From Cytobacillus kochii (lineage in GTDB: Bacteria; Bacillota; Bacilli; Bacillales; Cytobacillaceae): a stretch of 64,000 nucleotides of DNA. The DNA is taken from positions 248,001 through 312,000 of the forward strand of contig NZ_JAIVAM010000007.1 in NCBI RefSeq assembly GCF_020171845.1, in the 5' to 3' direction. The notes beneath the pieces are model-generated. The model was given only the letters and a program-made list of their open reading frames with translations, was not told the origin of the DNA and did no database searches. A program made the translations under genes and the position numbers. Of this stretch, positions 45,701 through 63,171 are shown in pieces. Position 1 is the stretch's first letter; every line of letters begins with the position of its first letter.

Positions 45701-45703
45701 AAG

Positions 45704-45740: not shown

Positions 45741-45781
45741 TACTTTCAAAATAGATTCCTTTAATTGAACATATAAAAACC

Positions 45782-45833: not shown

Positions 45834-45861
45834 ATTGGAAAACAAAAGGGAGTCCTTATGG

Positions 45862-46173: not shown

Positions 46174-46184
46174 AGGAGTCCTGC

Positions 46185-47360: not shown

Positions 47361-47372
47361 ACACCTTTAAGC

Positions 47373-47392
47373 CGTTATTATAAAATAACGGT
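47373..47392 (+). terminator. Terminator hairpin
   Basis: CCGTTATT-ATAA-AATAACGG, 12 bp after chrA, followed by TTTACTTTATTTTTG; can also serve the leftward gene from 47398. Confidence 0.7.
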
Positions 47393-47397
47393 TTACT

Positions 47398-47631
47398 TTA
47401 TTTTTGCTTCATCTTCAATTGATTTTCTAGCTCCGTTACACGATGCTCTAGTTTCTGCCTTTCATCAAGCTCCATTCTTAATTTTTCCTCCATCAATTCT
47501 CCGTTTTTTAAATACCTTTTTATGACCTTACTCGTGGCTACAAATACAATGATAAGTAAGGTAGGAATGATAAGAACAAATGTCAATATTATGATTCCAT
47601 TCACCAATGAAAACATATCCCCAAACCCCAT
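47398..47631 (-). CDS. Small membrane protein with C-terminal coiled coil
   Basis: 77 residues from ATG 47631, which has GGGAG at 8 bp; the frame opens at a TTG 15 bp earlier. One long helix (NGIIILTFVLIIPTLLIIVF) and a charged heptad-like end (MEEKLRMELDERQKLEHRV). Typical of small Bacillus membrane proteins of the DUF4083-like sort, but not identified firmly. Confidence 0.65.
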   Translation of the reverse strand: MGFGDMFSLVNGIIILTFVLIIPTLLIIVFVATSKVIKRYLKNGELMEEKLRMELDERQKLEHRVTELENQLKMKQK

Positions 47632-47802
47632 GGCTCCTACTCCCAACTAAATGAAAATCTTATTGCTTAATTAGTATATAGGACACATTTTCATATAGCC
47701 ACTCTTTATTTTCCACAAATATGTTATTAATATATAAGAAACAACTAATAGCATAAACTGAAACTTCAGCTAATAAAAATTTGTTACCATATTCATTAAC
47801 TT

Positions 47803-48135
47803 CTATTCCACCAAATACGTTAACAGTAACACACGTACCTCATCGTACAGCATATATTCATCTAAAAAATGAGGATAATCTCTCATTACCCGTTTTAAAA
47901 ACTCATATGTAGGGAACTGCTCAAAAAAGTCGGATGTCAATAATGATACTTGCCTTTGTGAAAGCTGATCTTGGCGGTTGTTGGCAACGTAACTTAGACT
48001 ACCTGCTATATTCATCCAGTATGTATGTAAATCTACAGTTAAATCCTCTAATGGATACGAATCACCAAAATCATTATCGATCTTTGTTAAGTCTTCAAAT
48101 GGCATGGGATGATATAGATTTTCCTTTTTTTCCAT
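47803..48135 (-). CDS. YxiJ-like protein
   Basis: 110 residues. The core PFEDLTKIDNDFGDSYPLED, LHTYWMNIAGSLSYVANN and SDFFEQFPTYEFLKRV matches my memory of YxiJ-family proteins, which are found in Bacillus next to LXG or WapA toxin loci and are candidate immunity proteins. No toxin gene is in this window. An orphan immunity gene is one reading. Start ATG 48135. Confidence 0.5.
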   Translation of the reverse strand: MEKKENLYHPMPFEDLTKIDNDFGDSYPLEDLTVDLHTYWMNIAGSLSYVANNRQDQLSQRQVSLLTSDFFEQFPTYEFLKRVMRDYPHFLDEYMLYDEVRVLLLTYLVE

Positions 48136-48242
48136 TAACTGTTCGAATATTGTTTGTTTATTGATATGCCCACCACCGCTTAGACGCTATTTGTTAACAC
48201 AGGGATAATAAAGGTTTCTATCGAGAGCTACTTTTCCCAGTA

Positions 48243-48419
48243 TCAAAAGAACCACTGATAAAAGAAAAAACCCCCAATAACAATAATTACGAGTAAGAGT
48301 AAATCGTTCCAGCCCATCCCACTTACATCAGGTGACGGACTCTGACTTTTATTAATGCTATCATTTAGCGTAACTGTGGGAGGATTCTCCTCCTGCTTCT
48401 TTCTATCTTCTGATGGCAT
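48243..48419 (-). CDS. Small membrane protein, 58 residues
   Basis: ATG 48419 with AAGGGGTG upstream. Polar, Pro/Ser-rich N-terminus (MPSEDRKKQEENPPTVTLND) then WNDLLLLVIIVIGGFFFYQW as a C-terminal membrane helix ending WFF. One predicted tail anchor. No family recognised. Confidence 0.6.
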   Translation of the reverse strand: MPSEDRKKQEENPPTVTLNDSINKSQSPSPDVSGMGWNDLLLLVIIVIGGFFFYQWFF

Positions 48420-48497
48420 TCCTACACCCCTTTTGTTTCACACTTTAGGGAAAAGCAATAGATAGCTATATTTACTGCATTTTCCCTTTCTCCTCTA

Positions 48498-48968
48498 TTA
48501 TTCTCGTTCCCTCGCAGCTTGCGTATCACGAATATTCTTTTGCACTGCGACACTTGCAAATAAGCTAAGGACAAAAGCCATCGCATAAAATCCCTTTTCA
48601 CTTAGAATAATACTACCAGCGTTATATAACCCAATGGCCATTAATGAAACGGCGACAATTAAAGCGAACCAACTGATCCCGTAATAAATACCCGTCACAG
48701 AAATACCATCTTCCTTGTCTCTTACCGCCTTTTGTAAAGAAACAGCGGCATACAATCCAAATATTAGAACAGCAAAATAATAGCCCTTCTCATTGAGTTC
48801 CATCGCAGCATTAAATAGACCGATGATATAAGCCGTCACACCTACTAATAGGGCTGCCCATGAAGCACCTTTAAAAGCTGCTGATGGTTCCCCTTCTTTT
48901 CTTTCTTCTTTCACTTTATTACTAGTCTTTTTCGCCTTCTCTACCATCAACTCTTCATCACTCGACAA
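48498..48968 (-). CDS. YiaA/YiaB two-helix domain membrane protein
   Basis: Frame opens at 48998; TTG at 48968 follows AAAGGTGGAGG and is the likely start (156 residues). N-terminal charged segment, then two copies of the YiaAB hairpin: FKGASWAALLVGVTAYIIGL...KGYYFAVLIFGLYAAVSLQK and YGISWFALIVAVSLMAIGLY...KGFYAMAFVLSLFASVAVQK, each ending V-Q/R-K. Function of the family is unknown. It overlaps or abuts the next gene upstream (49273-48986) by 12 bp in the longer form. Confidence 0.8.
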   Translation of the reverse strand: MSSDEELMVEKAKKTSNKVKEERKEGEPSAAFKGASWAALLVGVTAYIIGLFNAAMELNEKGYYFAVLIFGLYAAVSLQKAVRDKEDGISVTGIYYGISWFALIVAVSLMAIGLYNAGSIILSEKGFYAMAFVLSLFASVAVQKNIRDTQAARERE

Positions 48969-48985
48969 TATAACCTCCACCTTTC

Positions 48986-49273
48986 TCAACCCCACCACAT
49001 GGCTAATACAAAAGTTGACCAGATTGACATGATGAAGCTTATCATAACTACCACTACAAGGGTTTCCAAGTATTTTACCTTCATTCTATGTTTAATTACT
49101 CGGTAAAATGTTATCGCAATCGCTAGCATATAAAATAAATAACTGCTTATCGTTACAATGGTTAAAAAAGTGATTGGATAAACATTAGGCAAAATAGCAT
49201 GAAGGGAATAAGCAAAATCTTGACCAAAAATGGCAAATACCGAGCCAAGGAGTAAACAAATGATCACAATCAT
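48986..49273 (-). CDS. Small three-helix membrane protein
   Basis: 95 residues from ATG 49273, with GAGGTATAAG just before; the frame is open to 49312, but the first 13 codons overlap the promoter. Helices: MIVIICLLLGSVFAIFGQDF, PITFLTIVTISSYLFYMLAI, and a final LETLVVVVMISFIMSIWSTF. No known family. Directly upstream of the YiaAB gene and probably co-transcribed. Confidence 0.6.
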   Translation of the reverse strand: MIVIICLLLGSVFAIFGQDFAYSLHAILPNVYPITFLTIVTISSYLFYMLAIAITFYRVIKHRMKVKYLETLVVVVMISFIMSIWSTFVLAMWWG

Positions 49274-49297
49274 CTTATACCTCATTTTGTTTAATTT

Positions 49298-49313
49298 AGT
49301 GTAATTATACACT
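49298..49313 (-). promoter_or_regulatory. Promoter -10 within inverted repeat
   Basis: AGTGTA-ATTA-TACACT. Read leftward it includes TATAAT, with TTTCTA 17 bp upstream. The arms may be a regulator site for the two-gene unit that follows. Confidence 0.4.
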
Positions 49314-49411
49314 TTGTAAATTCGTTTAGAAACGTTTATTTATGAAAAATGTAATTTTTGAGAATAAATACCTAAAAAGAGTTAGTTCGAAAACGCGAAC
49401 CAACTCTTCTT

Positions 49412-50188
49412 TTATCCTTTATTCAATTTTAAATGAGCTTCCTTTATGAACAAATTCACCTTAAAGATCGTTTTATACATCAAGTAACCTACCATTGCAC
49501 CCATCGTATTAAGGATAATATCATCAATATCAAACTGCCCAATCTGCAAGAAAAACTGTAGAAGCTCAATAGAAAAACTCGCAGTAATGGCAGTGATGGT
49601 TACGACTGAAAAAAGTCGACAATGTTTAAAAAGCACCGGAAGTAATATTCCTAATGGCAGAAAAATAAGGATATTTCCAATTGTGTTAGTGATAATAATA
49701 TCCAAATTAAAGCGATCAGCACCTAAAAGATAGGTGATTGTCGTTTTAAAAGGGATAATATTTACATTCATGCCCCATTCAGATAAATTAAAGTTAAAAA
49801 AGCTCATTTGTTCTTCTCTTGATAAAAAATAAAAATTACCTGTATAACCATTAGCATAATTCATTATTCTCTCCAAGAGCCGACCAATAATTAACTGCCA
49901 TAAGACGACTAGTGCAAACAATGAAAACAGCAACCAGCTACTCACCTTATAGAGCTGATAGAATGGGGAGATAGATTGATTATAACCATGTGCAATGCTT
50001 TTCTGATTGCCAAAATCAGCTAGAGCCAGCTGTACGGCCTCTTTTTCACTCTTGCCATTTTGCCTATGTTCTTGTTTCAGTAGTAAAATATGGTCTGTCA
50101 TTTCATCAATGATCTCTTGCTTTTCAACATGGTCACAATCAATTGTATTTACAATTTGTTTGATATAGGATTCAACCTCTTTGTCCAC
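49412..50188 (-). CDS. VanZ family protein with N-terminal permease-prefix domain
   Basis: 258 residues. Residues 1-70 are a soluble helical prefix (SYIKQIVNTIDCDHVEKQEI, LALADFGNQKSIAHGYNQSI) of the kind that also precedes DUF1700 and FtsX-like permeases. Then about five helices with VanZ motifs: WGMNVNIIPFKTT, NTIGNILIFLPLGILLPVLF, SFSIELLQFFLQIGQFDIDD. VanZ-like proteins alter susceptibility to glycopeptides or act in envelope homeostasis. The start overlaps the PadR gene by 40 bp, so expression is coupled to that regulator. Confidence 0.85.
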   Translation of the reverse strand: MDKEVESYIKQIVNTIDCDHVEKQEIIDEMTDHILLLKQEHRQNGKSEKEAVQLALADFGNQKSIAHGYNQSISPFYQLYKVSSWLLFSLFALVVLWQLIIGRLLERIMNYANGYTGNFYFLSREEQMSFFNFNLSEWGMNVNIIPFKTTITYLLGADRFNLDIIITNTIGNILIFLPLGILLPVLFKHCRLFSVVTITAITASFSIELLQFFLQIGQFDIDDIILNTMGAMVGYLMYKTIFKVNLFIKEAHLKLNKG

Positions 50189-50511
50189 TTGAGCCCCTCC
50201 GTTGTTACGTTAATCAAATCATTCACTTTTTGCCACTCGCCTAGTTTCCTACTTAATTCTGTTTTTCCACCGTTTGTTAATTGATAATACTTCCTTCGAC
50301 CACCAAACTGTGAATCTTCCCAATACGCTTCAATCCAGCCATTCTTCTCCAACCTCTTTAAAGCCGGATACAATGTCCCTTCACTCATGTTATACAACTC
50401 ATGACTGTTTTCCTTTAAGCTCTTCACCATCTCATATCCGTACATATCTTTTTTAGATAATAATGAAAGCAATAAAATATCAATACTACCCTTCATGATT
50501 TCTTTATCCAT
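50149..50511 (-). CDS. PadR family transcriptional regulator
   Basis: 120 residues. DILLLSLLSKKDMYGYEMVK, LYNMSEGTLYPALKRLEKNG and RRKYYQLTNGGKTELSRKLG are the PadR winged helix. A palindrome upstream (50553-50572) is the likely autoregulatory site. Overlap with the VanZ gene start is the usual arrangement in PadR-prefix-domain operons, where the regulator controls an envelope protein. Start ATG 50511. Confidence 0.9.
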   Translation of the reverse strand: MDKEIMKGSIDILLLSLLSKKDMYGYEMVKSLKENSHELYNMSEGTLYPALKRLEKNGWIEAYWEDSQFGGRRKYYQLTNGGKTELSRKLGEWQKVNDLINVTTEGLKWTKRLNPISNKL

Positions 50512-50552
50512 TCTGTTTCTCCTTTATTTGGAAAGTCGCTAACTATATTGTA

Positions 50553-50572
50553 ATGCGATGTACATCGTATTA
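50553..50572 (-). promoter_or_regulatory. PadR-type operator
   Basis: AATGCGATGTACATCGTATT, with a perfect CGATGTACATCG core, upstream of the PadR-VanZ operon. Matches the ATGT...ACAT style of PadR sites. Confidence 0.65.
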
Positions 50573-50726
50573 CAAGGTAATTGTTGTCTTTATACAATGA
50601 ACATACACGGTTTTTTTCCAAATTTAAGAATATCCCCATGTAAAACAAGGAAATTTTTGTTATTATTTTTGTAGTAGAAGAATATTTTATTCTGCCTCAA
50701 TAAGAATTTAAGAATGGAGAGAAAGT

Positions 50727-50975
50727 GTGCTTAAAATCCTACAAATGATCTTATCTTTTCCCGCTTTAATTACCATCACATATATTTTCATAACGGAAGA
50801 TTTCACATTGCAGCCATTGTCGTTACTGCTATTAGGGTTGATGTTACTTATTATGACTATTACTCTATTTCAACAAGGTCATAAAGGGATCGCTTTATTT
50901 TGCGCCATTGTGATGTTCATATATATGATTGTTTTCATACAAAATATCGTTTATAGGGGTATACTATGGAATTAA
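50727..50975 (+). CDS. DUF3953 family small membrane protein
   Basis: 82 residues, GTG start with GGAGAGAAAGT upstream. Three helices: ILQMILSFPALITITYIFIT, PLSLLLLGLMLLIMTITLFQ, GIALFCAIVMFIYMIVFIQN. The size and helix pattern fit DUF3953, a family of unknown role in Bacilli. Its end overlaps the next small gene by 10 bp. Confidence 0.65.
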   Translation: MLKILQMILSFPALITITYIFITEDFTLQPLSLLLLGLMLLIMTITLFQQGHKGIALFCAIVMFIYMIVFIQNIVYRGILWN

Positions 50976-51121
50976 TATACGTTTTTATTATTTTTCTTAT
51001 TCTATTTCTCATTAGTGCTGTGCTTAATATTCTGTTGAAAATGACAAGAAAAAGAGACTGGCTGATTACTTTATTTATTAGTGTTTTTTTAAGCATTATT
51101 ATTTACGGGGTGCAACAATAG
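50966..51121 (+). CDS. Small two-helix membrane protein, 51 residues
   Basis: ATG 50966 inside the end of the DUF3953 gene, TAGGGGTAT upstream. MELIYVFIIFLILFLISAVL, a short KMTRKRD loop and ITLFISVFLSIIIYGVQQ. Overlap suggests translational coupling. Unknown function. Confidence 0.55.
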   Translation: MELIYVFIIFLILFLISAVLNILLKMTRKRDWLITLFISVFLSIIIYGVQQ

Positions 51122-51139
51122 ATTTGAAAATGGAGGGAT

Positions 51140-51679
51140 ATGGCCGAAATGGATGATACAAAGGAACGCCTCTTACTGGAGAGTGAACAACATTTCCACT
51201 CATTAATGAAACTAATTGAATCTGTTCCTGTAAGAAAAAGAAGCCTTTCCATCGAGACAGCTGACCGGGATAAAAATTTCCGCGATATTCTTATGCACCT
51301 ATATGAATGGCATGCGATGTTGGAACGCTGGTATAGAGAAGGCATGGCCGGAGATACACCATCCATGCCGGCACCCGGGTATAAGTGGCGAGAGATTCAA
51401 CAGCTTAATCAACAAATTTGGGAAAACTACCAAGATATGAAACTCAACCAAGCAATCAAGAAATGTAAATTAAGCCATGAGCGAATCATGAACATTATCA
51501 AGTCCCATACCACTGAAGAAATCATCACCAAAAAGCATTACAAATGGACAAAAACAAGCAATCTATATAGCTATTTTGCTGCGAATACATCCAAGCACTA
51601 CTTGTGGGCAATGGGGAAATGCGAAAAGATTATTGTTGAAATCAATTCAATGAATATGGTTAGTGATAGGAACAAATAG
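51140..51679 (+). CDS. ClbS/DfsB family four-helix-bundle protein
   Basis: 179 residues, start ATG 51140 or 51149 (GGAGGG upstream). DTKERLLLESEQHFHSLMKL, DRDKNFRDILMHLYEWHAML, APGYKWREIQQLNQQIWENY and KWTKTSNLYSYFAANTSKHY match the ClbS/DfsB (DUF1706) family. ClbS itself opens the colibactin cyclopropane; most relatives in Firmicutes are of unknown role. A decayed second copy of the C-terminal part lies 600 bp downstream. Confidence 0.85.
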   Translation: MAEMDDTKERLLLESEQHFHSLMKLIESVPVRKRSLSIETADRDKNFRDILMHLYEWHAMLERWYREGMAGDTPSMPAPGYKWREIQQLNQQIWENYQDMKLNQAIKKCKLSHERIMNIIKSHTTEEIITKKHYKWTKTSNLYSYFAANTSKHYLWAMGKCEKIIVEINSMNMVSDRNK

Positions 51680-51845
51680 TTTTGGATGTGGATTACTCTC
51701 AGTATCCCGCTTGCGGTTCTTGTTTCTTTCTCGGATTCGGGGATTACTTTTGAATTGCTCTCATCTCCACTTTTTGATAGACAATGTTGGTTTCCTAAGT
51801 TAGAAGTACTGTTCTTCTTCTCCAACGACGAGACCATAACTTCAC

Positions 51846-51884
51846 AAAAAGTACCCTATAGGTAGACTTTTACCTATAGGGTAC
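51846..51884 (-). terminator. Strong hairpin terminator
   Basis: GTACCCTATAGGTA-GACTTT-TACCTATAGGGTAC, perfect 14-bp arms; leftward reading ends in TTTTTG. It fits as the terminator of the broken ABC-2 permease gene at 52025-52213. The remainder of 51680-52024 shows no gene. Confidence 0.8.
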
Positions 51885-52024
51885 ATTCTTAGCCGTAAAC
51901 CATTTTTATTTAATTAGCTATTGTTTCTATTATGACCCACTATTACTGTTGAATAAGGTCCTCTAAGGATGTGAAATAATATTATTTTATACAATTAGTT
52001 GATTTCAAAACGAAATTTTTTTCT

Positions 52025-52213
52025 TTAGAGCCACCTAAATGTTTTAATTGTCATTAAATAAAAAACAATACTTAAGCCAAGTATAATCGATATATCCCCT
52101 ACTATTGGCAACTTTCCATCGAAATCAAACAATGCCTGATGGTAAATATCAGTAAGGTATGTAAACGGAATAAAATAAGAAATCGTTTCAAATATATCAG
52201 GTAATATATACAA
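52025..52213 (-). pseudogene. ABC-2 type permease C-terminal remnant
   Basis: ILPDIFETISYFIPFTYLTD and IYHQALFDFDGKLPIVGDIS, then a last helix GLSIVFYLMTIKTFRWL, as in the C-terminal end of drug/antibiotic ABC-2 permeases (P-I-P-F-x-Y-x-x-D region). Everything upstream of this is missing; the adjoining sequence is not permease. The ATPase partner is absent too. Confidence 0.65.
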
Positions 52214-52284
52214 ATGAAATCATTTATCTGGGAAATGCTTTGTTGATGATTATTAGTGATTATTAACAGAAGATACACTTTCAT

Positions 52285-52400
52285 CTGTTCTGAATCATAT
52301 CACTCATTTATAACCAATAGCATTACAAATGGCAAAGACCAGCAGTCTATCTAGTATTTTTCTACGAATACCTTTAAACCTAACTTTGTGGGCATGAAAT
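52285..52400 (+). pseudogene. Decayed copy of ClbS/DfsB C-terminus
   Basis: AGCATTACAAATGG followed by AAGACCAGCAGTCTATCTAG, TTTTTCTACGAATAC and CTTTGTGGGCATGAAAT align base for base with the end of the gene at 51140-51679 (codons for KHYKWTKTSNLYSYF...LWAMGK) with scattered substitutions and indels. No intact frame remains. Duplication then decay is the simplest reading. Confidence 0.6.
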
Positions 52401-52918
52401 ATAAACAGTTCATAAGTTTAGGGTTTCCTCGTTGTTGGAGATTTCTTCTGGATATGTTTCCTCCTCTTTAACCAGCTTTGGATACTGCTTTTAAATTATC
52501 ACTTTCCTCTTCAAACGACTTACATTAGTCATTGGCCTGTCTTTTTAAAAGGTCGGAAATTCCTTTACACTCATAAAAGGGACGCCTTCTCAATGTCAGG
52601 GGATTGAAATGATGAGTATGGCGGCAAACTAAATAAAAGTGAGTTTACTTAATAAATTATTTTGTGAATAGATGTTCTTAAACAAACGAGGCATTTCTTT
52701 AAAAAGAGATGCTCTTTTCGTAGCCAATTAAAAGGAATTGAATGTTTGTATTATATTAGAGATGGTTTTTCTTCTATTATATGTAGAGAAAGCTTTAATT
52801 CGATATATGCTACACTATAAATACGAGGAACTTTGGAGGCACACCACCACGGATTAAAATTATATAGACCATCACGGACATATTGTGAAACAGTGCTTTT
52901 AAAAAGGAGTTGGATAAA
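52401..52918. other. Long spacer upstream of AlkD-like gene
   Basis: No intact frame. Contains a terminator-like hairpin GAGGCATTTCTTT/AAAGAGATGCTC followed by TTTT (52688-52719), and the promoter region of the next gene (TACACTATAAATAC near 52808, then a GTGGTGTGCC-type inverted segment GGAGGCACACCACCAC). Confidence 0.4.
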
Positions 52919-53587
52919 ATGGATAAAAACAAAGATACAGAAATAAAGCGATCTTCAAAAGCAGAACACATTCTACTTCAGATCAATAGTAAAACGAAGC
53001 TAGGCGACTTACGAAAAATCGCGAAGGATATTAAAAAAGATCACGAACTAGCTATGGAACTTTGGTCAACTGAAGAGTTTTTGCCTAGACTATTAGCAAT
53101 CTTAATTATGGACAAAAAACTTCTTTCTCAAGATGTGCTAAATAAGCTTGATAAGGATATGCAGACTCACACTCTTGATGAGCGAAATAACTTAATGGAT
53201 TGGTTAATGGCTAATCAACTCACCAAAGACAAGAAGAAAATTGCATTGATGGAGTCATGGGAAAATAGTCCTTCTGCTCTTCAAAGGCGAGCTTTCTGGT
53301 ATTATCAAGGGCGATTGAGATGGACTGGACAAACACCGCCTGATAACACCGCAGACTTGCTATCTAGATTAGAAGCTAATATTATGCAGGAGGAACCGGA
53401 AGTTCAATGGGCTATGAATTTCACCGCAGGCTGGATAGGCGTTTATGATGAAAAGAATCGTACACGTTGTATGAATCTTGGTGAGAAAACGGGTCTTTAC
53501 AAAGATGAAAAAGTAGCAAAAGGTTGTACTCCCAGCTATTTGCCAGAGTTCATTGCGATTGAAGTGGACAAACGGCAAAATAACTAG
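52919..53587 (+). CDS. DNA alkylation repair protein-like (AlkD family)
   Basis: 222 residues from ATG 52919 (AAAAGGAG upstream); a TTG 9 bp earlier abuts the site. HEAT-like helical repeats: KLGDLRKIAKDIKKDHELAM, ELWSTEEFLPRLLAILIMDK and LMESWENSPSALQRRAFWYY. These fit AlkD/AlkC-type glycosylase folds. The Asp/Trp catalytic pair of AlkD was not located with certainty, so a repair role is provisional; several Firmicute homologues are annotated only from the fold. Confidence 0.75.
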   Translation: MDKNKDTEIKRSSKAEHILLQINSKTKLGDLRKIAKDIKKDHELAMELWSTEEFLPRLLAILIMDKKLLSQDVLNKLDKDMQTHTLDERNNLMDWLMANQLTKDKKKIALMESWENSPSALQRRAFWYYQGRLRWTGQTPPDNTADLLSRLEANIMQEEPEVQWAMNFTAGWIGVYDEKNRTRCMNLGEKTGLYKDEKVAKGCTPSYLPEFIAIEVDKRQNN

Positions 53588-53781
53588 TTACCTCAGGGGT
53601 TACTGTATTTGTGCACGGTGTAATACAAATTTGTTGCTTCAATATTAAATCACTTATCACGTAACCAATCAGCATTTTATATCGAAAGCAATGATGACTC
53701 TTGCTAGTGCGAAATGCCACACTGAAAATTGTTCTCCTCCTTTTACTGACCCCATCACTCAACTAGAACGATAGCTCCATA

Positions 53782-53812
53782 CAAAAACCCCCCACAAATT
53801 CCTGTGAGGGGT
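53782..53812 (-). terminator. Terminator of peptide ABC operon
   Basis: Leftward: ACCCCTCACA-GGAATT-TGTGGGGGGT followed by TTTTTG, about 19 bp after the binding-protein stop. Confidence 0.85.
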
Positions 53813-53830
53813 ATCTTTCATTTCTATCCT

Positions 53831-55630
53831 TTATTCAGCTTGATACTTACCTAAGAATTCCTTCACTTTATCAGCATCGGCTTTTAGTTCATTGCCAGTA
53901 TCTACTAGTGGACTTACTGTAGATGAGGCTTTGATTTTATTACCTTGGTAGTAGTCGATGATTTCCTCTTGGTTGATAGAGTAAAGTACGGCTCTTCTTA
54001 GATCGGCACTTTCAGAAACGGCACGACCTTCTGTATTAAATAGAAGGTATGATACAGCATTACTTGGAATGCTTTGTAATTGTAGTTTGCTATCGCCTTC
54101 TACCGTCTCATATTTATTTTCTGGTACGCTGTATTGAATATGTGTTTCTCCGTTACGTAAGGCAGAAAGTGAGCTATCAATATCGGCAATGAAACGAACA
54201 TTTACTTGATTAATATTTGGTTCATTTTCAGTATCCGTCATATAACCTGGGTTTTTGTAGAATACAGCTTCATAATCATTTTTATGAGATAAGATGTATG
54301 GGCCACTAGCATATAACGTATTGTCATAGCTATCGCCTTCAGTTACTGTGTTTTGGTCACCATAAGCGATGTCCTTGTTTACATCAAAGTCTTCCACTTT
54401 ATACGTGTTGATTGATTCGACTTGTTCTTTTGATACAATACCTGCAGATTGGTGCGCAAGGTAGTTTAATACTTGTGGGAATGGTTCTGTAGTTGTTACT
54501 TTCACCACTTGGTATTTACCTGCTGCGTTATCTGCTGCATCATCTTCAGCAACTAACTCGGCAATCTCTGTATCTAATCCTTCTTCAAGTGCTGCTTTAA
54601 CCGTACCCTCGCCACCTGAAGTTTGTACTTTCTCTAATTCTGAAACATCTGTCACAACTTCAGCTGTCTCAATATGCTCATGTAAGCTATATGTGCGGTG
54701 ATCTGGTACAGAATTTTTATCCTTCGCACGTTCTAGTGAGAAGACAACATCCTCTGCACCAACAAGGTCATCTGTTTCTTCTGCTTTTTTATCAGTAACT
54801 TTGGCAAAATTAACGTCATCTCTTAATAAGAAATAATACTCAGAATTGCCATCTGCAATACTAAAATTACGAGATAGGGAACCATCAGCCGTCACAACAT
54901 CATCATCTGTTAAGTTTACAAGGCGAATATACATATTCGAATTCAACATATTAATAGAACCATCGTTCCCTTTAATTGGGTCAAGGGAAGTCAGTGTTGA
55001 AAGTGTTTGCGATAATACGAGTGGATCTGATTCTCTCTTCGCTTCATCTTGGAAATCAATCGTTTCCCATGCTAAAGAGCGCGATTTAGAAAGGCGAACA
55101 GAATCTGGTACTAACACATCTTTATTCAATGCTTGTGTTTTGTAAGAGCTATATAATGGTGCAATATAAGCTTTATCAAATACAAGTTTTTCCTCGAATT
55201 CCTTATATGTTTTTGCGTATTCTTCTGGTGTTTCAGTACTTGCTTTATCTATCAACTCATCAATCTCTTTATCAGCCATAATGCTGTAATCTCCACCGCT
55301 AATAAACAATGAACGCACAGCGTAATCTGGATTTCCTGTTACAGTCGTCCAACTTGATAAAGCAACATCATAGTTTCCTGCATCTTGTTGTGCTTTAAAG
55401 CTACCATAGTCAGGTTGGATGTTTAATTTTACATCAAAACCATTCTTCGTTAATTGGTCACGAACAATGTTCATGTCCTCTTCACTACTGCTCATGCCAA
55501 GAATCTCTATTGATGGCTTAGAGCCATCACCACTACCTGAACCTTCATTCTCAACATCAGATTTTGTATTCACACATCCTGTTAGAATCAATGTAAATAT
55601 TAACAAGAATGATAGTACCGCCTTTTTCAT
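53831..55630 (-). CDS. Family-5 (peptide-type) substrate-binding lipoprotein, apparently circularly permuted
   Basis: 599 residues. Lipobox LILTGC (Cys19), Gly/Ser/Asp linker to ~38. Residues ~40-190 read like the end of SBP_bac_5 proteins: EEDMNIVRDQLTKNGFDVKL, GNYDVALSSWTTVTGNPDYA, EFEEKLVFDKAYIAPLYSSY. Residues ~200-330 then read like the usual beginning: LVLSQTLSTLTSLDPIKGND, YYFLLRDDVNF, GAEDVVFSLERAKD. The C-terminus is the usual middle: SYLLFNTEGRAVSESADLRR, AVLYSINQEEIIDYYQGNK, ending KVKEFLGKYQAE where normal proteins continue into the segment found here at the N-terminus. Gene order: last of leftward operon after two permeases. Peptide or nickel ligand unknown. Confidence 0.9.
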   Translation of the reverse strand: MKKAVLSFLLIFTLILTGCVNTKSDVENEGSGSGDGSKPSIEILGMSSSEEDMNIVRDQLTKNGFDVKLNIQPDYGSFKAQQDAGNYDVALSSWTTVTGNPDYAVRSLFISGGDYSIMADKEIDELIDKASTETPEEYAKTYKEFEEKLVFDKAYIAPLYSSYKTQALNKDVLVPDSVRLSKSRSLAWETIDFQDEAKRESDPLVLSQTLSTLTSLDPIKGNDGSINMLNSNMYIRLVNLTDDDVVTADGSLSRNFSIADGNSEYYFLLRDDVNFAKVTDKKAEETDDLVGAEDVVFSLERAKDKNSVPDHRTYSLHEHIETAEVVTDVSELEKVQTSGGEGTVKAALEEGLDTEIAELVAEDDAADNAAGKYQVVKVTTTEPFPQVLNYLAHQSAGIVSKEQVESINTYKVEDFDVNKDIAYGDQNTVTEGDSYDNTLYASGPYILSHKNDYEAVFYKNPGYMTDTENEPNINQVNVRFIADIDSSLSALRNGETHIQYSVPENKYETVEGDSKLQLQSIPSNAVSYLLFNTEGRAVSESADLRRAVLYSINQEEIIDYYQGNKIKASSTVSPLVDTGNELKADADKVKEFLGKYQAE

Positions 55631-55660
55631 CTGCTTTCCCCCCTGAAAGTCTTTTATTTA

Positions 55661-57160
55661 TTAATCAAGCTTAGGGTCAAGTGCATCACGCAACCCGTCC
55701 CCAAGAAAGTTAAACGATAAAACAAGTGCAATAATAGCAATACCAGGATAAATAGCTAAGTAGGAATGTGATTCTAGATAAGCACTACCTACTTTTAAGA
55801 TATTACCCCATTCCGGTATATGCGGCTCAATTCCTAATCCTAAATAACTTAAACTACTTGTGGCAATTACTGCTCCTCCGATTGTTAACGTAGCCTTTAC
55901 AATCATTGGCGCCATACTATTTGGGACAATTTGTTTAAAAATAATCGATAGATTACTTGCTCCGAGCGCACGAGCCGACATAACATATTCCATATTGGAA
56001 ATCATCAGCACATTTGCTCGCATCGTTCTTGCATACGTTGGAATTGAACCAACACTTAAGGCAATCACTAGTGTCGTTGTGCTTGCCCCGAAAGCTGCGA
56101 TGATGACGATCGCAAGTAAAATACCTGGAATAGCATATAATACATCTAATAATCGCATTAAAATATTATCCGTGCGTTTCCCATAATAACCAGAAATAGC
56201 ACCTAGAATCCCACCAACCACAAACGGAATGAAGGTCGATAAAACCCCTACAATCAGAGAGATCCTGGCCCCAAAGACAATGCGCGAGAACACATCGCGA
56301 CCAAAATTATCTGTACCTAAAGGATAGGCAAGACTTGGCATTTGTAATGTAGCACCATAATTATTATCAACCGCCATACCATAATCGAAGGTCCAATAAC
56401 TGCAAATCGATAAAGAGAAAATAAACAGAATGAAAAATAATCCTAGCATCGCTGTCATATTACTCGCAATTTTCTCCCACATCGCATACCATTTAGCAAC
56501 AGTAGATGGCGTTTTGCTGAACACTTCTAATAGCATAAATAAACCTAAGGCAAGGGCAAATAAATTACCGGTTAAAGAAGTAAGTATTAATAGGATTCCT
56601 ACAGACAACTTCCATTTCGATAATTGTCCGTTATCTTTTATTACTAAAAGGAGTACAACCAACTGAAAAACGAAAATGGCCAGTAACAAAAACATACCCA
56701 TGAGGAATGTATTCGCTACGTAAGGTTTAAACAAGTTTAATGAAGATACCGCAATCACGTAGAATTGCGTCATCAACATAAACATAGTAAATAAGTATTG
56801 TGGGCTTTTTTTCTTTTTAATAAGACCAAATGCAAAAGCGGTTGTGAAAATATTACCCACCAATACACTTAATAGTTGGAAATAACCCCACATTCTTGTC
56901 GACGAGCGTATAACGCCATCTCTTTTCAAATCCCGCTTCACTTGATAAGCAATAAAAGATTGAATGATAGAGAAAACGGCATAAGCAATAAATAATGAAA
57001 AGAAAACTGGCTTGATTGCCCCTGTTGAAAAATCAATACCTGCAAGCAAAAAGATCAGCGTTAAGGCAATAGAGACAACAAGGGCAAAGTTGGCCTGCGC
57101 ATATTCAGATGTCGCCTTTAAGGCGAATTTTTTTAACAAGCTATCTTTATGAGTAGACAT
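55661..57160 (-). CDS. DppC-type permease with six-helix N-terminal extension
   Basis: 499 residues, against about 300 for DppC/OppC. Residues ~1-220 are an extra block of about six helices (FALVVSIALTLIFLLAGIDF, AIKPVFFSLFIAYAVFSIIQ, WGYFQLLSVLVGNIFTTAFA, YLFTMFMLMTQFYVIAVSSL and two more). The standard domain begins near WEKIASNMTAMLGLFFILFI and has PLGTDNFGRDVFSRIVFGAR, YAIPGILLAIVIIAAFG and the EAA loop ARALGASNLSIIFKQIVPN. Start ATG 57160; 30 bp upstream of the binding protein gene. Confidence 0.9.
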   Translation of the reverse strand: MSTHKDSLLKKFALKATSEYAQANFALVVSIALTLIFLLAGIDFSTGAIKPVFFSLFIAYAVFSIIQSFIAYQVKRDLKRDGVIRSSTRMWGYFQLLSVLVGNIFTTAFAFGLIKKKKSPQYLFTMFMLMTQFYVIAVSSLNLFKPYVANTFLMGMFLLLAIFVFQLVVLLLVIKDNGQLSKWKLSVGILLILTSLTGNLFALALGLFMLLEVFSKTPSTVAKWYAMWEKIASNMTAMLGLFFILFIFSLSICSYWTFDYGMAVDNNYGATLQMPSLAYPLGTDNFGRDVFSRIVFGARISLIVGVLSTFIPFVVGGILGAISGYYGKRTDNILMRLLDVLYAIPGILLAIVIIAAFGASTTTLVIALSVGSIPTYARTMRANVLMISNMEYVMSARALGASNLSIIFKQIVPNSMAPMIVKATLTIGGAVIATSSLSYLGLGIEPHIPEWGNILKVGSAYLESHSYLAIYPGIAIIALVLSFNFLGDGLRDALDPKLD

Positions 57161-57173
57161 GCTGCACCTACTT

Positions 57174-58634
57174 TTAATATTGTTTCATTTTTGAACGAAT
57201 TCTTGGATCGATAAATGCATATAAAATATCAATCAATAAGTTCACTAATGAGATTGTAATGGCAATATATACAACACCGCCCATAATAGCGGGAATATCA
57301 GGGATAAATTGTTTATCAACAATATAACTTCCAATTCCACTAATATTAAAAACTTTTTCTGTAACAGCAGCTCCACCGAGCATACCGCCAAACATTAAAC
57401 CAATGACAGTAATAATTGGTATCAAAGCATTTCCAAAAGCATGGCGCCAAAGTATGCGGCGTTCATTAAGACCTTTTGCTCTTGCAGTAATAATATAATC
57501 TTCATGGATGACTTCTAGCGTAGATGAGCGAGTCATCCGAGCAATGGAAGCCATTAAACCGGTTCCCAGGACAACCGCTGGCATGATAATCGAAAGCAAA
57601 TTACCTGGTGTAAAAGTAGCCGGCAGCCACTGTAACTCAATCGAAAATGTTAAAATAAAGATTAAACCTTGCCAAAAATTCGGAATCGATAACCCAATTA
57701 AAGCTACGAACATAAGGGTATAATCTAAAAAGGTATTAGACCTTGTAGCAGAAATGATTCCAATAGGAATGGCAATAACAATCGCTAAAATTAAGGCAAT
57801 AAACGTTAGTAATAGTGTGATTGGAATTTTTCTAGCGATGGCATCCACAACATTTTCATTTCCGGCAAAAGAAGCACCTAAATCAAATGTGAAAATACCT
57901 TGAATTGCTTGCCATAATTGAACCCAATACGGTTGATCTAACCCATAAATTTGGTTAAATGTCGCGATCTGTTCCTTAGTAGCCGTTACTCCTAAAATAT
58001 TGGCAGCTGGATCAAACGGTGAAATATACAAAATCGTAAACACAAAAAAAGCGACCCCAACAATAACAAATAGGGTGGAAACAAGCCTTTCAAAAATATA
58101 CTTTATATACGGATTCATATACAAGAAAAGGAGGGTATAGAACAATAATCCAGGTATGAACGTTAGAACAACAAATACTGGATGTTCTAATAATGATCGC
58201 ATGATACTTGCAAAAGTTAATTGATCTTCTCCTCGCTGTGCTAATTCCTCCTGAACTTTATCCTCTACTACCTGAAGAAACTCATCCTCTGCTCTCTTTT
58301 CAGCCACTTGTTTCATTTTCAACTCATCTATCTTTTGCTGAAAGAACGTTTGCTTTCGCCTTTGCTGTTCTATATGTTTCGTAATTAATTTTTCCTTTAA
58401 ACCGGCTTCTGTGCATGCTTGATGGAGCTCACGCCATAACCGCTGATAAGCGTCATCTTTTCTCTTTATGAGGTAAATAATGAAGCTAATCACATAAACT
58501 GGTAAACCTATAATCAACATCGCCCATTTTAAAAATGGGTATTGGTTCATTTTCCCAAAGGTTTGACTGAGTGTCGAAAGCACATTAGGAACGCTAGATG
58601 AATGTATCTGTGGCGCATTATTGACTGTATTCAT
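57174..58634 (-). CDS. DppB-type permease with coiled-coil N-terminal extension
   Basis: 486 residues, against about 310 for DppB/OppB. Residues ~1-180 are extra: a helix (PFLKWAMLIIGLPVYVISFI), a long charged helix rich in Lys/Glu/Gln (TKHIEQQRRKQTFFQQKIDE, LKMKQVAEKRAEDEFLQVVE) predicted as a coiled coil in the cytoplasm, and a second helix (VFVVLTFIPGLLFYTLLFLY). The normal domain starts at IKYIFERLVSTLFVIVGVAF and contains IYGLDQPYWVQLWQAIQGIF, and the EAA-like ARAKGLNERRILWRHAFGNA. First gene of the leftward operon; 13 bp to the second permease. Confidence 0.9.
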   Translation of the reverse strand: MNTVNNAPQIHSSSVPNVLSTLSQTFGKMNQYPFLKWAMLIIGLPVYVISFIIYLIKRKDDAYQRLWRELHQACTEAGLKEKLITKHIEQQRRKQTFFQQKIDELKMKQVAEKRAEDEFLQVVEDKVQEELAQRGEDQLTFASIMRSLLEHPVFVVLTFIPGLLFYTLLFLYMNPYIKYIFERLVSTLFVIVGVAFFVFTILYISPFDPAANILGVTATKEQIATFNQIYGLDQPYWVQLWQAIQGIFTFDLGASFAGNENVVDAIARKIPITLLLTFIALILAIVIAIPIGIISATRSNTFLDYTLMFVALIGLSIPNFWQGLIFILTFSIELQWLPATFTPGNLLSIIMPAVVLGTGLMASIARMTRSSTLEVIHEDYIITARAKGLNERRILWRHAFGNALIPIITVIGLMFGGMLGGAAVTEKVFNISGIGSYIVDKQFIPDIPAIMGGVVYIAITISLVNLLIDILYAFIDPRIRSKMKQY

Positions 58635-58671
58635 TCATCCGTTCACCCCCTTTAGTCCCGATAATTCCTAG

Positions 58672-58713
58672 TTGTATACTATATTTTAATTCTAGTATAA
58701 TATGACTGTCAAT
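58672..58713. promoter_or_regulatory. Divergent promoter region of the peptide ABC genes
   Basis: Rightward: TTGTAT (58672-58677), 18 bp, TATAAT (58696-58701) for the ATPase. Leftward: TTGACA (58713-58708) with a weaker -10 near 58685-58690 (ATTAAA) for the permease operon. The two promoters overlap. Confidence 0.5.
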
Positions 58714-58754
58714 ATTGTTCGAGAGTAAACATCAAAGTTTGGTAGGTGGAGAAT

Positions 58755-60512
58755 GTGGAACCGTTATTAAAAATAGAAAATTTACAAGTATCCTTTATGT
58801 CTCGAGAGAAGGAATTTGAAGCTGTCAAAGGTGTCAGCTTTACTGTCAATAAAGGAGAAACATTAGGCATTGTCGGTGAATCAGGCAGTGGCAAGAGTGT
58901 CACTGCCCGCTCGATTATGAGACTGCTCCCGTCTCCTCCTTCCCTTTTAAAAGACGGCGAGATTATGTTTCTCGGTAAAGATCTGGTCAATGCAAGTGAT
59001 CAAGAATTGGAAGCGATCAGAGGGAAAGATATGAGCATGATCTTCCAAGATCCAATGACCTCGTTGAATCCAACGATGCGTATTGGTCAACAATTAACTG
59101 AAACAATGCTAAAACATACAAAAGGATTAGGTAAAACTCAAGCAAAGGCTGAAGCCATTGAGCTTTTAAGATTAGTAGGGATTCCAAAGCCAGAAGTTCG
59201 TTTTGCCCAATACCCACATGAGTTTTCTGGCGGGATGCGGCAACGGGCAATGATTGCTATCGCTCTTGCTTGTCGTCCTAAGCTACTCATCGCTGACGAA
59301 CCAACAACAGCACTTGATGTAACCATACAAGCGCAAATACTGAACCTAATGAAGCATATGCAGGAAAAATTCGGTACTGCGATCATTTTAATCACCCATG
59401 ACCTTGGCGTTGTTGCTGGCATGTGTGACCGTGTTGTCGTAATGAAGGACGGGGAAATCGTTGAAAAAGGCACAACCGAAGAAATCTTTGAGCATGCCAC
59501 TCACCCTTATACATTACGATTACTCAACGCTTTACCAAAGCTTCATGAAAAAAAGAAAGCAAAACCAGCACCGCGTATTAGTGAAGATATCAATGCAAAA
59601 GAACCCCTTCTCGAAGTAAAAGCATTGAAACAACACTTCGATTTAGGCAAAGGCCAAGTGTTGAAGGCTGTTGATGATATTAGCTTCTTTATTAAACCTG
59701 GTGAAACACTTGGTCTTGTCGGGGAGTCTGGTTCAGGAAAGTCCACCACCGGGCGTGCGATTTTAAGATTAAATGAACCAACTGCTGGTGAAGTGTTGTA
59801 CCAGGGTATTCCTGTGAATCAACTAACAGCAAAGGAAATGAAGATGATGCGCAGACATATGCAAATGATTTTTCAAGATCCTTATGCTTCATTAAACCCG
59901 CGCTTTAAAGTAATTGATATTATCGGTCAAGCACTAGATATTCATAAGCTCGTAAAAAATAAGCAAGAACGCCGGAAACGCGTAGAAGAATTACTAGAAA
60001 TGGTGGGTTTGGAGAAGGAACATGCAATGCGTTATCCCCATGAATTTTCTGGGGGACAAAGACAGCGAATTGGGATTGCCCGCGCACTTGCCGTCGAACC
60101 AAAATTCATCGTCTGTGATGAGCCACTCTCTGCACTAGACGTATCCATCCAAGCGCAAATCGTTAAATTACTTGAAGACTTACAGCAAAAGCTTGGATTG
60201 ACCTACCTATTTATTGCCCACGACCTCTCCATGGTTAAACATATTAGTGACCGTGTAGCCGTTATGTTCGGGGGAAAAATCGTCGAACTCGCAGAAAGTG
60301 AAGAACTCTATGCTAACCCGCAGCACCCATATACAAAATCACTACTCGCTGCCATCCCAATCCCTGACCCAGCGATTGAACGGCAGAAAAAACGCGAAAC
60401 TTTGTCCGCACAAGAAGAGCGACGTGAGGAATATCAACTCGATAATGCTGAACTTGTGGAAGTAACGCCTGGGCATTGGGTTGCTCAGCCGAAGGTAACA
60501 GTGGAAATATAA
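58755..60512 (+). CDS. Fused double ABC ATPase for peptide-type importer
   Basis: About 585 residues, GTG start at 58755 (or GTG 58746, which lies in the AGGTGGAG site). Two full DppD/DppF-like ATPases in one chain. First: Walker A GESGSGKSVT, signature FSGGMRQRAMIAIAL, Walker B LLIADEPTTALD, switch THDLGVVAGM. Second: GESGSGKSTTG, FSGGQRQRIGIARAL, FIVCDEPLSALD, AHDLSMVKHI. Each half has the Opp-type C-terminal extension (HPYTLRLLNALP; HPYTKSLLAAIP). It is transcribed away from the two permeases and is the obvious energy source for them. Confidence 0.95.
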   Translation: MEPLLKIENLQVSFMSREKEFEAVKGVSFTVNKGETLGIVGESGSGKSVTARSIMRLLPSPPSLLKDGEIMFLGKDLVNASDQELEAIRGKDMSMIFQDPMTSLNPTMRIGQQLTETMLKHTKGLGKTQAKAEAIELLRLVGIPKPEVRFAQYPHEFSGGMRQRAMIAIALACRPKLLIADEPTTALDVTIQAQILNLMKHMQEKFGTAIILITHDLGVVAGMCDRVVVMKDGEIVEKGTTEEIFEHATHPYTLRLLNALPKLHEKKKAKPAPRISEDINAKEPLLEVKALKQHFDLGKGQVLKAVDDISFFIKPGETLGLVGESGSGKSTTGRAILRLNEPTAGEVLYQGIPVNQLTAKEMKMMRRHMQMIFQDPYASLNPRFKVIDIIGQALDIHKLVKNKQERRKRVEELLEMVGLEKEHAMRYPHEFSGGQRQRIGIARALAVEPKFIVCDEPLSALDVSIQAQIVKLLEDLQQKLGLTYLFIAHDLSMVKHISDRVAVMFGGKIVELAESEELYANPQHPYTKSLLAAIPIPDPAIERQKKRETLSAQEERREEYQLDNAELVEVTPGHWVAQPKVTVEI

Positions 60513-60549
60513 AAGAAAAGCCGGCCATTTTCGGTCGGCTTTTCTTTTA
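60511..60549. terminator. Bidirectional terminator
   Basis: AAAAGAAAAGCCGGCC-ATTTTC-GGTCGGCTTTTCTTTT, A-run on one side and T-run on the other. It overlaps the ATPase stop codon and serves the convergent AtoE-type gene. Confidence 0.95.
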
Positions 60550-60557
60550 TAAATTCT

Positions 60558-61868
60558 CTAGTAGACAAAATAGATAAGAATAGTAGTAATCACCCCGACC
60601 CAAACACTCAACAAAATGCAATACCCCATTATATGGCGAATATGCAGACCAACAACACTTAAAATAGGTAGAGCCCAAAAGGGTTGAATGAGATTCGTCC
60701 AACCATCTCCCCAACCGACAGCCATTGCCGTGATGGCATGATTTACTCCTAGCTGTGCTCCTGCCGCTACTTGTAATGGACCTTGTAATGCCCATTGTCC
60801 TCCACCAGACGGGGCGAGTAGGTTCACCACGCCTGCAGTCCAATAAGTAAAAACACCAAAAGTATCTGATGTGGCCACATTGGTTATCCAATTGATAATA
60901 GACTCAGCTATCCCTGAGCTACCAAGTACCGCAATAATGCCAGCATAGAAAGGAAATTGCAAAATAATCGGTGATATCGATGAGGCCGCATCCTTAAAAG
61001 CTTCTGCATATTGAGTAAGCGACTGATGAAATAATAAACCTAAAGATAGAAACGCAAGATTAATAATATTTAAATCTAAATCTCTACCATTCCAAAATGA
61101 AACCAGTAAATAAATAAGTCCAATCAAACCTGTTACCGTTCCCCAAACCTTCGATCGCTCTAACTTCATAGCCGGACTATCTATTTTCTGTTCCTTTTGT
61201 CGAGAAGTTACCTTTTTTTCTTTTTCTACAAAAGGAATAATGTCTTTTTTTGGTGCCATTAATATGATGAATAGTGGCATCGTTATCACTAAGGCAATAA
61301 GAATCGTCATTGTACCTGGATGGAATATTGTCTCGGAAGTAGGAATGACACCAATAGCACTTTGAAGAAAATGACCTTCTGTTGCCACTGATAATCCAAT
61401 TGAACTCGATAAACCAGCTGTGTACAATACCGTGGGTGCATATGCAGCTGCTACCAGTAATGGAAAATGCGCCTGCTGATTTCTTTTACCAACCTCTCGG
61501 GCGATGATTGCACCGACAATGACCGCCAATCCCCAGTTAATATAATAGGCAAATGAGGATACGAGAAAGGTGAGAATATAAGCTTGATTTGCACTTTTGG
61601 CTAATGATGCTACACGGCTGAGAAAACGTTGGATAAAAGGGACTTTAGCTAATGCCATTCCCGTCATTAATAATAAAACCATTTGCATAGTAAAGGTTAA
61701 ATAAGTCCAAAAGCCATCACCGAAAGACTCCACAATCATCAATGGCTCACTTGGATTCATGATTAAAGCAAGGCCCATCATGAGTAACATCAGGATAACA
61801 GCAATGACAAAGGCATCCGGTAAAAATCTCTCAACCATTTTTGAAAAACGGTGTGCTAATCGATTCAT
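60558..61868 (-). CDS. AtoE-type short-chain fatty acid transporter
   Basis: 436 residues, about 11-12 helices. Family motifs: LAHRFSKMVERFLPDAFVIA at the start, GDGFWTYLTFTMQMVLLLMT, SSFAYYINWGLAVIVGAIIA, and LLAPSGGGQWALQGPLQVAA followed by AVGWGDGWTNLIQPFWALPI. These mark the AtoE/TIGR00366 short-chain fatty acid uptake family. It stands alone; no ato catabolic genes are near. Start ATG 61868. Confidence 0.92.
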   Translation of the reverse strand: MNRLAHRFSKMVERFLPDAFVIAVILMLLMMGLALIMNPSEPLMIVESFGDGFWTYLTFTMQMVLLLMTGMALAKVPFIQRFLSRVASLAKSANQAYILTFLVSSFAYYINWGLAVIVGAIIAREVGKRNQQAHFPLLVAAAYAPTVLYTAGLSSSIGLSVATEGHFLQSAIGVIPTSETIFHPGTMTILIALVITMPLFIILMAPKKDIIPFVEKEKKVTSRQKEQKIDSPAMKLERSKVWGTVTGLIGLIYLLVSFWNGRDLDLNIINLAFLSLGLLFHQSLTQYAEAFKDAASSISPIILQFPFYAGIIAVLGSSGIAESIINWITNVATSDTFGVFTYWTAGVVNLLAPSGGGQWALQGPLQVAAGAQLGVNHAITAMAVGWGDGWTNLIQPFWALPILSVVGLHIRHIMGYCILLSVWVGVITTILIYFVY

Positions 61869-62136
61869 TCCCTACTCCCCCTAACATGCTCGTCAGCACT
61901 AGGCTGTAGTACATGGTATGAACGAGGGAAAAGGGATATACGCTTTATTTTCTCAAAAAGTTTGTCCGGAATAAAGAAAGTAATTGAGTGGTCATCAATA
62001 CAAAAGTTCATTACTACCTATAGTAAAATCTAAATCATATAGCACTTAAGAATCTCTCACTTGCTCCAATGTAATAGTTAACATGGCGAACTTTCTCCTT
62101 TATAATATAAGAAAAAGTAGGAAAGGATGATTTTGA

Positions 62137-63063: not shown

Positions 63064-63171
63064 GCGTAGCTCAGGTCATGAAAGTCCTTGATTAAACAAG
63101 AGGCTAAACACTTTTTTGACGATTTAGGGCAAAGCCATAAACAAATGACCGGAAGGAGGAAAAGTCGTGGC

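Follow-up and report, generated by a model that had tools for sequence, protein, structure and literature searches.

A 64,000-nucleotide stretch of the Cytobacillus kochii genome (assembly GCF_020171845.1, contig NZ_JAIVAM010000007.1, positions 248,001 to 312,000 of the forward strand; hereafter the window, with positions counted from its first letter) carries a gene for a family-5 solute-binding protein (SBP) in which the segments of the fold appear in an unusual order. The locus raises the question of whether this chain is a genuine circular permutation and, if so, which importer it serves and what that importer takes up. The reading that we consider best overall, with a probability of roughly 70%, is that the gene encodes a permuted, C-lobe-anchored SBP of a GisABCD-type importer for a sulfur nutrient, probably glutathione (GSH) or its disulfide (GSSG).

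Reversed order of the two halves of the SBP

The gene lies on the minus strand (53831..55630) and encodes 599 residues from an ATG start, and the open reading frame (ORF) given in an earlier interpretation of the letters alone (the sequence-only reading) is correct. A signal peptide with lipobox (residues 1-19; 55574..55630), identified from sequence and alignment, is retained at the new N-terminus; it reads LILTGC, ends in Cys19 and conforms to the Gram-positive lipoprotein pattern. Cys19 is nearly invariant in a 43-row alignment of permuted SBPs (A1; a second alignment, A5, has 17 rows). The former C-terminal segment of the fold now comes first (residues 40-193; 55052..55513), as delimited by Pfam, by PDB chains and by a hidden Markov model (HMM) of paralogues. 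A short linker (about residues 194-201; 55028..55051), placed by the sequence and by the rotation analysis below, bridges the original C- and N-termini, and no hydrophobic remnant of a signal sequence was seen in it by eye. The former N-terminal segment comes last (residues 202-599; 53834..55027) and ends at the helix that forms the normal mid-point.

PF00496 (SBP_bac_5; profile length 368, gathering score 32.4 bits) is the only Pfam-A family that matches the protein at E up to 1, and it does so with 133.1 bits in two stretches. In the genome-wide search, the start of the SBP aligns with profile positions 300-366 (31.1 bits, just below the cut-off on its own) and its end with positions 10-271 (106.5 bits); each of the nine other PF00496-matched proteins of the genome covers about positions 1-366 in one stretch. 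The two matches in reverse order are what the sequence-only reading had predicted, and since 300-366 precedes 10-271, the protein is a permuted variant and not an ordinary SBP_bac_5 member.

The paralogue HMM, built from nine other family-5 proteins of the genome and 520 positions long, aligns native residues 53-172 with its positions 379-500 (45.4 bits) and residues 207-593 with positions 48-354 (98.7 bits); the signal peptide aligns with positions 2-41 (9.5 bits). When residues 1-38 were removed and the chain was rotated at residue 200, a single domain spanning HMM positions 51-500 was obtained at 151.2 bits, with the optimal cut points forming a plateau at about residues 174-214. In the control, half-rotation of the nine paralogues lowered their scores by 40-50%. 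A single colinear SBP_bac_5 alignment, named beforehand as the outcome that would count against the permutation, is ruled out by the Pfam and paralogue-HMM alignments alike.

Comparison with PDB sequences gave the same two blocks. A profile of the 43-row family aligns at positions 49-156 with 5u4o 378-489 (independent E value, i-E, 3e-7) and at positions 439-573 with 5u4o 201-333 (i-E 0.002). The single sequence aligns with 3m8u in three stretches that are each weak alone: residues 56-147 with 370-465 (i-E 10), 217-336 with 17-133 (i-E 0.09) and 431-577 with 173-317 (i-E 0.004). For the excised residues 38-197, all 13 PDB rows with E < 0.1 are family-5 proteins matched in their C-terminal part; the best is 5u4o 380-490 (E 3.8e-6), and unrelated proteins begin at E 0.23.

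An AlphaFold2 model of the SBP (mean predicted local distance difference test score, pLDDT, 78.5; predicted template modelling score 0.77) has a low-confidence leader followed by a strand at residues 40-46, and a terminal helix at residues 586-598. Its best structural matches are cluster C proteins, and in the structural alignment residues 202-599 superpose on DppA 1-341. The model and the rotation plateau agree that the break is clean and falls where it had originally been placed, after the KAKELL-type helix and before the strand that follows it. As judged by these sequence comparisons, we are virtually certain that the SBP, a cluster C (family-5) solute-binding lipoprotein, has undergone a clean circular permutation in nature.

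Conservation of the permuted chain

Since permutation requires several rearrangement steps, the first suspicion is an artefact: a mis-assembly, a frameshift, or a broken tandem duplication taken for one gene. The ORF is nevertheless intact and has its own lipobox, and in a genome-wide scan that returned 72 loci from separate genome records the same order is present at every one (72/72 align from residue 41 or earlier through residue 596 or later). The SBP ORF is full-length, with at least 560 residues, at 71 of the 72, and is broken at 437 residues in L083. The mean column identity of 78% over the 43 rows points to selection on the permuted chain. Alignment of all 72 loci along the whole permuted chain disposes of the assembly error that had been named as a possible refutation; assembly error or broken duplication is excluded by the intact ORF and by the homologous loci with the same order, and we consider the chance of an artefact negligible.

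The 72 loci come from Cytobacillus, Paenibacillus, Rossellomorea, Niallia, Neobacillus, Sporosarcina and Saccharibacillus, together with one 'Bacillus sp.', one Paenibacillaceae metagenome-assembled genome (MAG) and one Arthrobacter-labelled record. The closest, in Cytobacillus stercorigallinarum, is 98% identical. Of 61 genomes of relatives, 36 belong to the window's genus, and all 12 occurrences of the permuted SBP fall within these 36. Of 398 genomes drawn from the class, 35 gave a match (34 full-length and one fragment), and in a draw of 398 from the phylum the permuted SBP was found in four; the two draws are not independent, since G000, G126, G395 and G436 are present in both. Homologues with the same permuted order, a search for which had been suggested as a check, are thus present among the genus relatives, in the class draw and in the 72-locus scan. 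On the evidence of these alignments, the permuted SBP is old and under selection.

A four-gene operon, probably of the GisABCD type

Three further importer genes accompany the SBP. A fused two-domain ATPase (GisA-like; 58746..60512, plus strand; 588 residues, two ABC_tran stretches) diverges from an OppB/DppB-type permease (GisB-like; 57174..58634, minus strand; 486 residues), which is followed by an OppC/DppC-type permease (GisC-like; 55661..57160, minus strand; 499 residues) and by the permuted, GisD-like SBP. The ATPase resembles the YejF and GsiA models, scoring under their cut-offs. The OppB-type permease matches PF19300 at residues 177-277 and PF00528 at 288-480; the OppC-type permease matches PF00528 at 316-498, OppC_N weakly at 224-272, and NCBIfam Opp4C at 223-497, under its cut-off.

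The neighbours of the permuted SBP, which the sequence-only reading had proposed to compare, are conserved: the order divergent ATPase, OppB-type permease, OppC-type permease and SBP is found with strands kept in 71 of the 72 loci, the exception being L078, where the contig ends before the ATPase. Full-length ORFs were counted at 69/72 loci for the OppC-type permease, 70/72 for the OppB-type permease (at least 460 residues) and 70/71 for the ATPase. No fifth gene is conserved, the commonest other neighbour family being present in only 21 of 72 loci. A protein of about 150 residues is encoded directly 3' of the SBP in 21/72 loci (e.g. L044 9868-10326).

Two unusual genomic settings of the operon were noted. 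The Arthrobacter-labelled record (L046, NZ_JADHDX010000017.1, labelled Arthrobacter beigongshangensis) has operon DNA 88% identical to that of a Sporosarcina psychrophila MAG (L054), and may reflect contamination or transfer. In Metabacillus dongyingensis the operon lies on a 362-kb plasmid (L207, NZ_OK052578.1), a possible route of spread. A variant operon in genome G827 (L133 6892-13792) has the ATPase as two separate genes between the OppC-type permease and the permuted SBP, all on the same strand, possibly a pre-fusion state of the ATPase.

The most distant members (L126-L128) come from genomes of 2.5-2.6 Mb that are Staphylococcaceae by similarity. They have the four genes in the window's order and strands, and local alignments with the window give 39-41% identity for the SBP, 45-48% for the permeases and 49-50% for the ATPase; in L126 the gene 3' of the SBP encodes a gamma-glutamyltransferase. 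The importer genes of a Staphylococcus aureus record (NZ_CP077929.1) are 71-80% identical to L126 in a first copy and 60-84% identical in a second, inverted and partial copy. Its SBP opens with the lipobox, continues through the segment that ordinarily closes the fold and across the junction, and includes about 20 residues of the part that ordinarily opens it; it runs to about residue 224 of the window SBP and then into the inverted copy. This 'plasmid' record (L136, 15231-29935) contains the start of the operon twice as a near-palindrome, a structure suggestive of a misassembled piece of the chromosome.

In S. aureus, as described in PMC10355420, gisBCD is operonic with ggt and gisA is presumed to be divergent; GisABCD-Ggt (SAUSA300_0200-0204) imports glutathione and promotes GSSG acquisition. 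Growth on 250 uM GSH or less required Gis, as reported for a gisD mutant (PMC12510641). In the window locus as in GisABCD, the fused ATPase gene faces away from the genes for two permeases and an SBP; the proteins are homologous one by one, order and strands agree, and the S. aureus record shares the permuted start of the SBP. By gene order and functions, as opposed to a locus-tag match, the window importer is very probably the GisABCD ortholog. The sequence-only reading had drawn no connection to GisABCD or to sulfur.

Control region and probable link to sulfur metabolism

Two elements lie 5' of the GisB-like gene on the minus strand. A promoter-like match, TTGACA-18-TAAAAT (11/12; 58683..58712), is the best of 20 sites in the window, and since shuffles give 18.2 expected sites, without overall enrichment, it is to be read as a consensus match only. 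Between it and the GisB-like start lies a candidate CymR-like box, TATACAACTAGGAATTA (58662..58678), called from sequence only, for which 0 occurrences are expected in window shuffles. Its core, ATACNNNTMGGAATTA, is found exactly at two places in the genome: the importer promoter and the promoter of a methionine-to-cysteine operon. The second copy stands 50 bases 5' of a methyltransferase gene that is followed by genes for an MTA/SAH (methylthioadenosine/S-adenosylhomocysteine) nucleosidase, a cysteine-synthase-like protein and a cystathionine gamma-lyase, the gene order of yrrT-mtnN-mccAB, which is under CymR repression in B. subtilis (PMC3519770).

When one mismatch is allowed, 19 of the 22 sites besides the two exact ones lie inside ORFs of at least 120 residues, and one of the other three has an ORF start within 300 bases downstream. 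A longer form of the box (matched by a regular expression in which 3-7 bases separate constant flanks) is present in 40 of 71 intergenic stretches, and the 8-mers ATATAGTA and CGGAATAA, on either strand, in 50 and 49 of 70. The CymR site of B. subtilis cysK, as given in PMC11487621, is only loosely like the window box. Taken at the level of sequence, the box suggests cysteine control and is good but not decisive evidence for it. We consider it likely that the importer takes up a sulfur nutrient.

Ligand pocket and substrate

Thirteen of the 18 ligand contacts of GbpA, including S430 and D432, are located in the C-lobe, and D432 holds the amino group of the ligand (PMC3295651); D408 of DppA (D436 of the precursor) has the same role. 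Placed by the W-x-x-x-x-G-x-P motif in weak stretches of the alignment, GbpA S430 and D432 correspond to T95 and V97 of the window SBP. Both residues are invariant in the 43-row and 17-row alignments; in NZ_CP077929.1, V97 is kept and T95 is Met. GsiB, itself a glutathione binder, has Ser at the Asp position, again in a weak stretch (6.5 bits). With Val97 in place of Asp, GSH would need a binding mode other than that of GbpA, and the usual grip on an ordinary peptide with a free amino group would not be expected.

The latter point bears on a general di- or tripeptide importer whose SBP was permuted by happenstance and whose sulfur link is coincidental. DppA, GsiB and GbpA are among the closest solved relatives by sequence, with similar scores, and GSH is itself a tripeptide; against this, an invariant Val stands where DppA has its amino-group Asp, the exact box core occurs elsewhere only before the cysteine operon, and nine other family-5 proteins serve the same genome. 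We regard such an importer as most improbable.

We hold, with moderate confidence, that the substrate is glutathione or GSSG. Import of a different sulfur compound (for instance a gamma-glutamyl peptide that is not GSH, a peptide containing cysteine, or the precursor of a thiol) is unlikely in our estimate, although it draws on the same regulatory evidence: the box points to sulfur and not to GSH specifically, and the regulon reaches beyond glutathione, CymR derepression being reported to rescue pantothenate-pathway mutants of B. subtilis (PMC11487621). The absence of a ggt neighbour and the limited identity of the SBP to the Staphylococcus-type protein, both detailed below, favor it further. 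What speaks for glutathione is that the four genes, their order and their strands match GisABCD, which promotes GSSG acquisition in S. aureus, and that two Ggt-family genes are located elsewhere in the window's genome, one of which shows no obvious signal peptide on inspection. In this genome a Ggt-family gene lacking an obvious signal peptide adjoins an ordinary Dpp-type importer (L204 1001-7986; G000:C5) and could provide the cytoplasmic step missing beside the Gis-like operon.

N-terminal extensions of the permeases

Both permeases are extended at their N-termini. In the OppC-type permease the extension comprises residues 1-222 (56495..57160, minus strand), and was characterized by modelling, Foldseek, hhalign and linkage. 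It is modelled almost wholly as helices (pLDDT 88.6), and Foldseek found no PDB match to the fold at E <= 0.001 (best E 0.71). Its halves, cut by hand, align in hhalign with a probability of 95.7 and E 9e-9, and blastp between the window halves gives only E 0.003; the extension apparently consists of two related repeats, as judged from these comparisons. Staphylococcus-type OppC-like permeases keep about one repeat, i.e. about half of the extension. The extension of the OppB-type permease comprises residues 1-176 (58107..58634, minus strand). No Pfam match with E < 0.2 was found before residue 177, and by eye the region reads as two hydrophobic segments separated by a charged stretch. Residues 177-486 align with DppB (8z1v; E 3e-57) in two stretches covering nearly all of the core. 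The scoop region of DppB, which reaches into the cleft of the SBP, is retained with a one-residue gap, so delivery is probably conventional; at the position of the DppB Glu-Arg pair, as we read the alignment, the permease has Val-Thr.

Of the 35 class-draw genomes with a permuted SBP, 34 encode the OppC-type extension, which was found in none of the other genomes among the 398; the 35th has the SBP fragment only. Whole or as its second half, the extension is present in every genome of this draw with a full-length permuted SBP (34/34). Extension and permuted SBP were found in one and the same set of four phylum-draw genomes, all of them also in the class draw. No genome of either draw combines an extended OppC-type permease with an SBP of ordinary order.

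The sequence-only reading had proposed that the permutation changes the geometry of the lipid anchor relative to the permeases. This idea fits the placement of the former C-terminal segment in the lobe that is rich in ligand contacts in GbpA, by analogy, and it fits the extra regions on both permeases. That the extensions are adapted to the moved anchor is a tentative proposal, somewhat less likely than not. We give slightly less than an even chance to a neutral origin, in which an ancestral operon acquired the permutation by chance fixation, with no connection between it and the permease extensions. Even perfect linkage proves little here, since one operon is inherited as a unit; the retained scoop, with its one-residue gap, means that docking may be ordinary, and Staphylococcus-type OppC-like permeases do with about half of the extension. 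What speaks against a neutral origin is the 34/34 co-occurrence of the extension, or its second half, with the permuted SBP, even though ordinary permeases of the family work without any such region.

Other features of the window

An intrinsic terminator-like hairpin of 11 pairs followed by TTTT lies 3' of the SBP gene (53787..53812, minus strand; window scan). Six terminator-like sites were found against 3.0 expected, and this hairpin has the longest stem. No Rfam family reached its gathering score in positions 45000-64000. At 63179-63997 a 51-base unit is repeated in tandem (16.1 copies, 90% matches) almost to the end of the window; reading frames through the array are open on both strands, with KEKISRxKxRIATNL repeats on one and hydrophobic repeats on the other.

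Discussion

The proposed mechanism can be outlined as follows. The SBP chain would fold into the usual two-lobed clamp, with the lipid anchor attached through about 20 leader residues to the C-lobe instead of the N-lobe; because the C-lobe segment follows the lipid anchor by about 20 residues, the anchor is expected to have moved from one lobe to the other. The SBP would capture an extracellular sulfur nutrient, most likely glutathione or its disulfide, and dock on two permeases whose extra N-terminal regions may secure or guide a receptor tethered in this other way. Import would be powered by the fused ATPase, and CymR would repress the operon when cysteine is plentiful.

Several observations weigh against this reading as a whole. 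(i) No ggt is present beside the operon among the listed ORFs of the window, so the locus falls outside GisABCD-Ggt as defined, and none was recognised among the neighbour families common to at least 5 of the 72 loci. (ii) The SBP is only about 40% identical to its Staphylococcus-type counterpart, and NZ_CP077929.1 covers only the first 40% of the SBP. (iii) The amino-group Asp of DppA and GbpA is Val97 in the permuted SBP. (iv) The VIA-align rows begin at residue 173 or later of the SBP model. (v) The one-mismatch box pattern is not enriched (24 sites, as against 34 when the pattern is reversed as a control), and CymR control by itself would not point to glutathione in particular. (vi) Extension and permutation may be linked simply because a single operon is inherited whole.

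The only natural permutation of an importer's binding protein among the literature matches listed is Tp0684/MglB-2 of Treponema pallidum, a permuted cluster B protein termed 'Type Ic/Cluster Bc', whose authors raised membrane tethering as a possible reason for the permutation (PMC4990184). Like the window SBP, it is a natural permutation of a lipid-anchored binding protein of an ATP-binding cassette (ABC) transporter and is found in many species; it differs in having the cluster B sugar-binding fold and another break point, whereas the window SBP is a cluster C, family-5 protein and consequently outside Type Ic. DppA, GsiB (1uqw), GbpA (3m8u) and OppA belong to the same family as the window SBP by Pfam and sequence, but have the ordinary order of halves. 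In E. coli DppABCDF (PMC12136057), the DppB core aligns with the OppB-type permease and the scoop region is kept, but DppA is not permuted and the N-terminal extensions are a feature of the window permeases. The sequence-only reading knew of no described permuted family-5 SBP, and among the matches listed from the open-licence literature on permutation we likewise found none.

For GisD itself, no word beginning 'permut' occurs in the main texts of PMC10355420 (2023) and PMC12510641 (2025, DtpT). In PMC10355420, the sequence difference between GisD and GsiB is ascribed to different recognition mechanisms, and a survey of genomes with a Ggt homologue reported the complete GisABCD-Ggt only in the S. 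aureus group. If the same design is at work in S. aureus GisABCD, it has gone unremarked there, and any residue-by-residue comparison of GisD with ordinary glutathione binders would have been out of register; the alignment and modelling of GisD should change. A new subtype of ABC importer, in which N-terminal membrane regions of the permeases receive a C-lobe-anchored receptor and which S. aureus GisABCD shares, is an attractive but rather doubtful extension of these results.

The range of GisABCD-type transporters, so far staphylococcal, would thereby come to include Cytobacillus, Paenibacillus, Sporosarcina and other Bacilli, in which no adjacent ggt was recognised. The SBP, which is conserved and belongs to one particular operon, would be the first natural permutation in the large family-5 group (peptide, nickel and glutathione binders), and would offer a naturally permuted template for biosensor design. 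It would also make testable whether it matters which lobe of a binding protein carries the membrane anchor.

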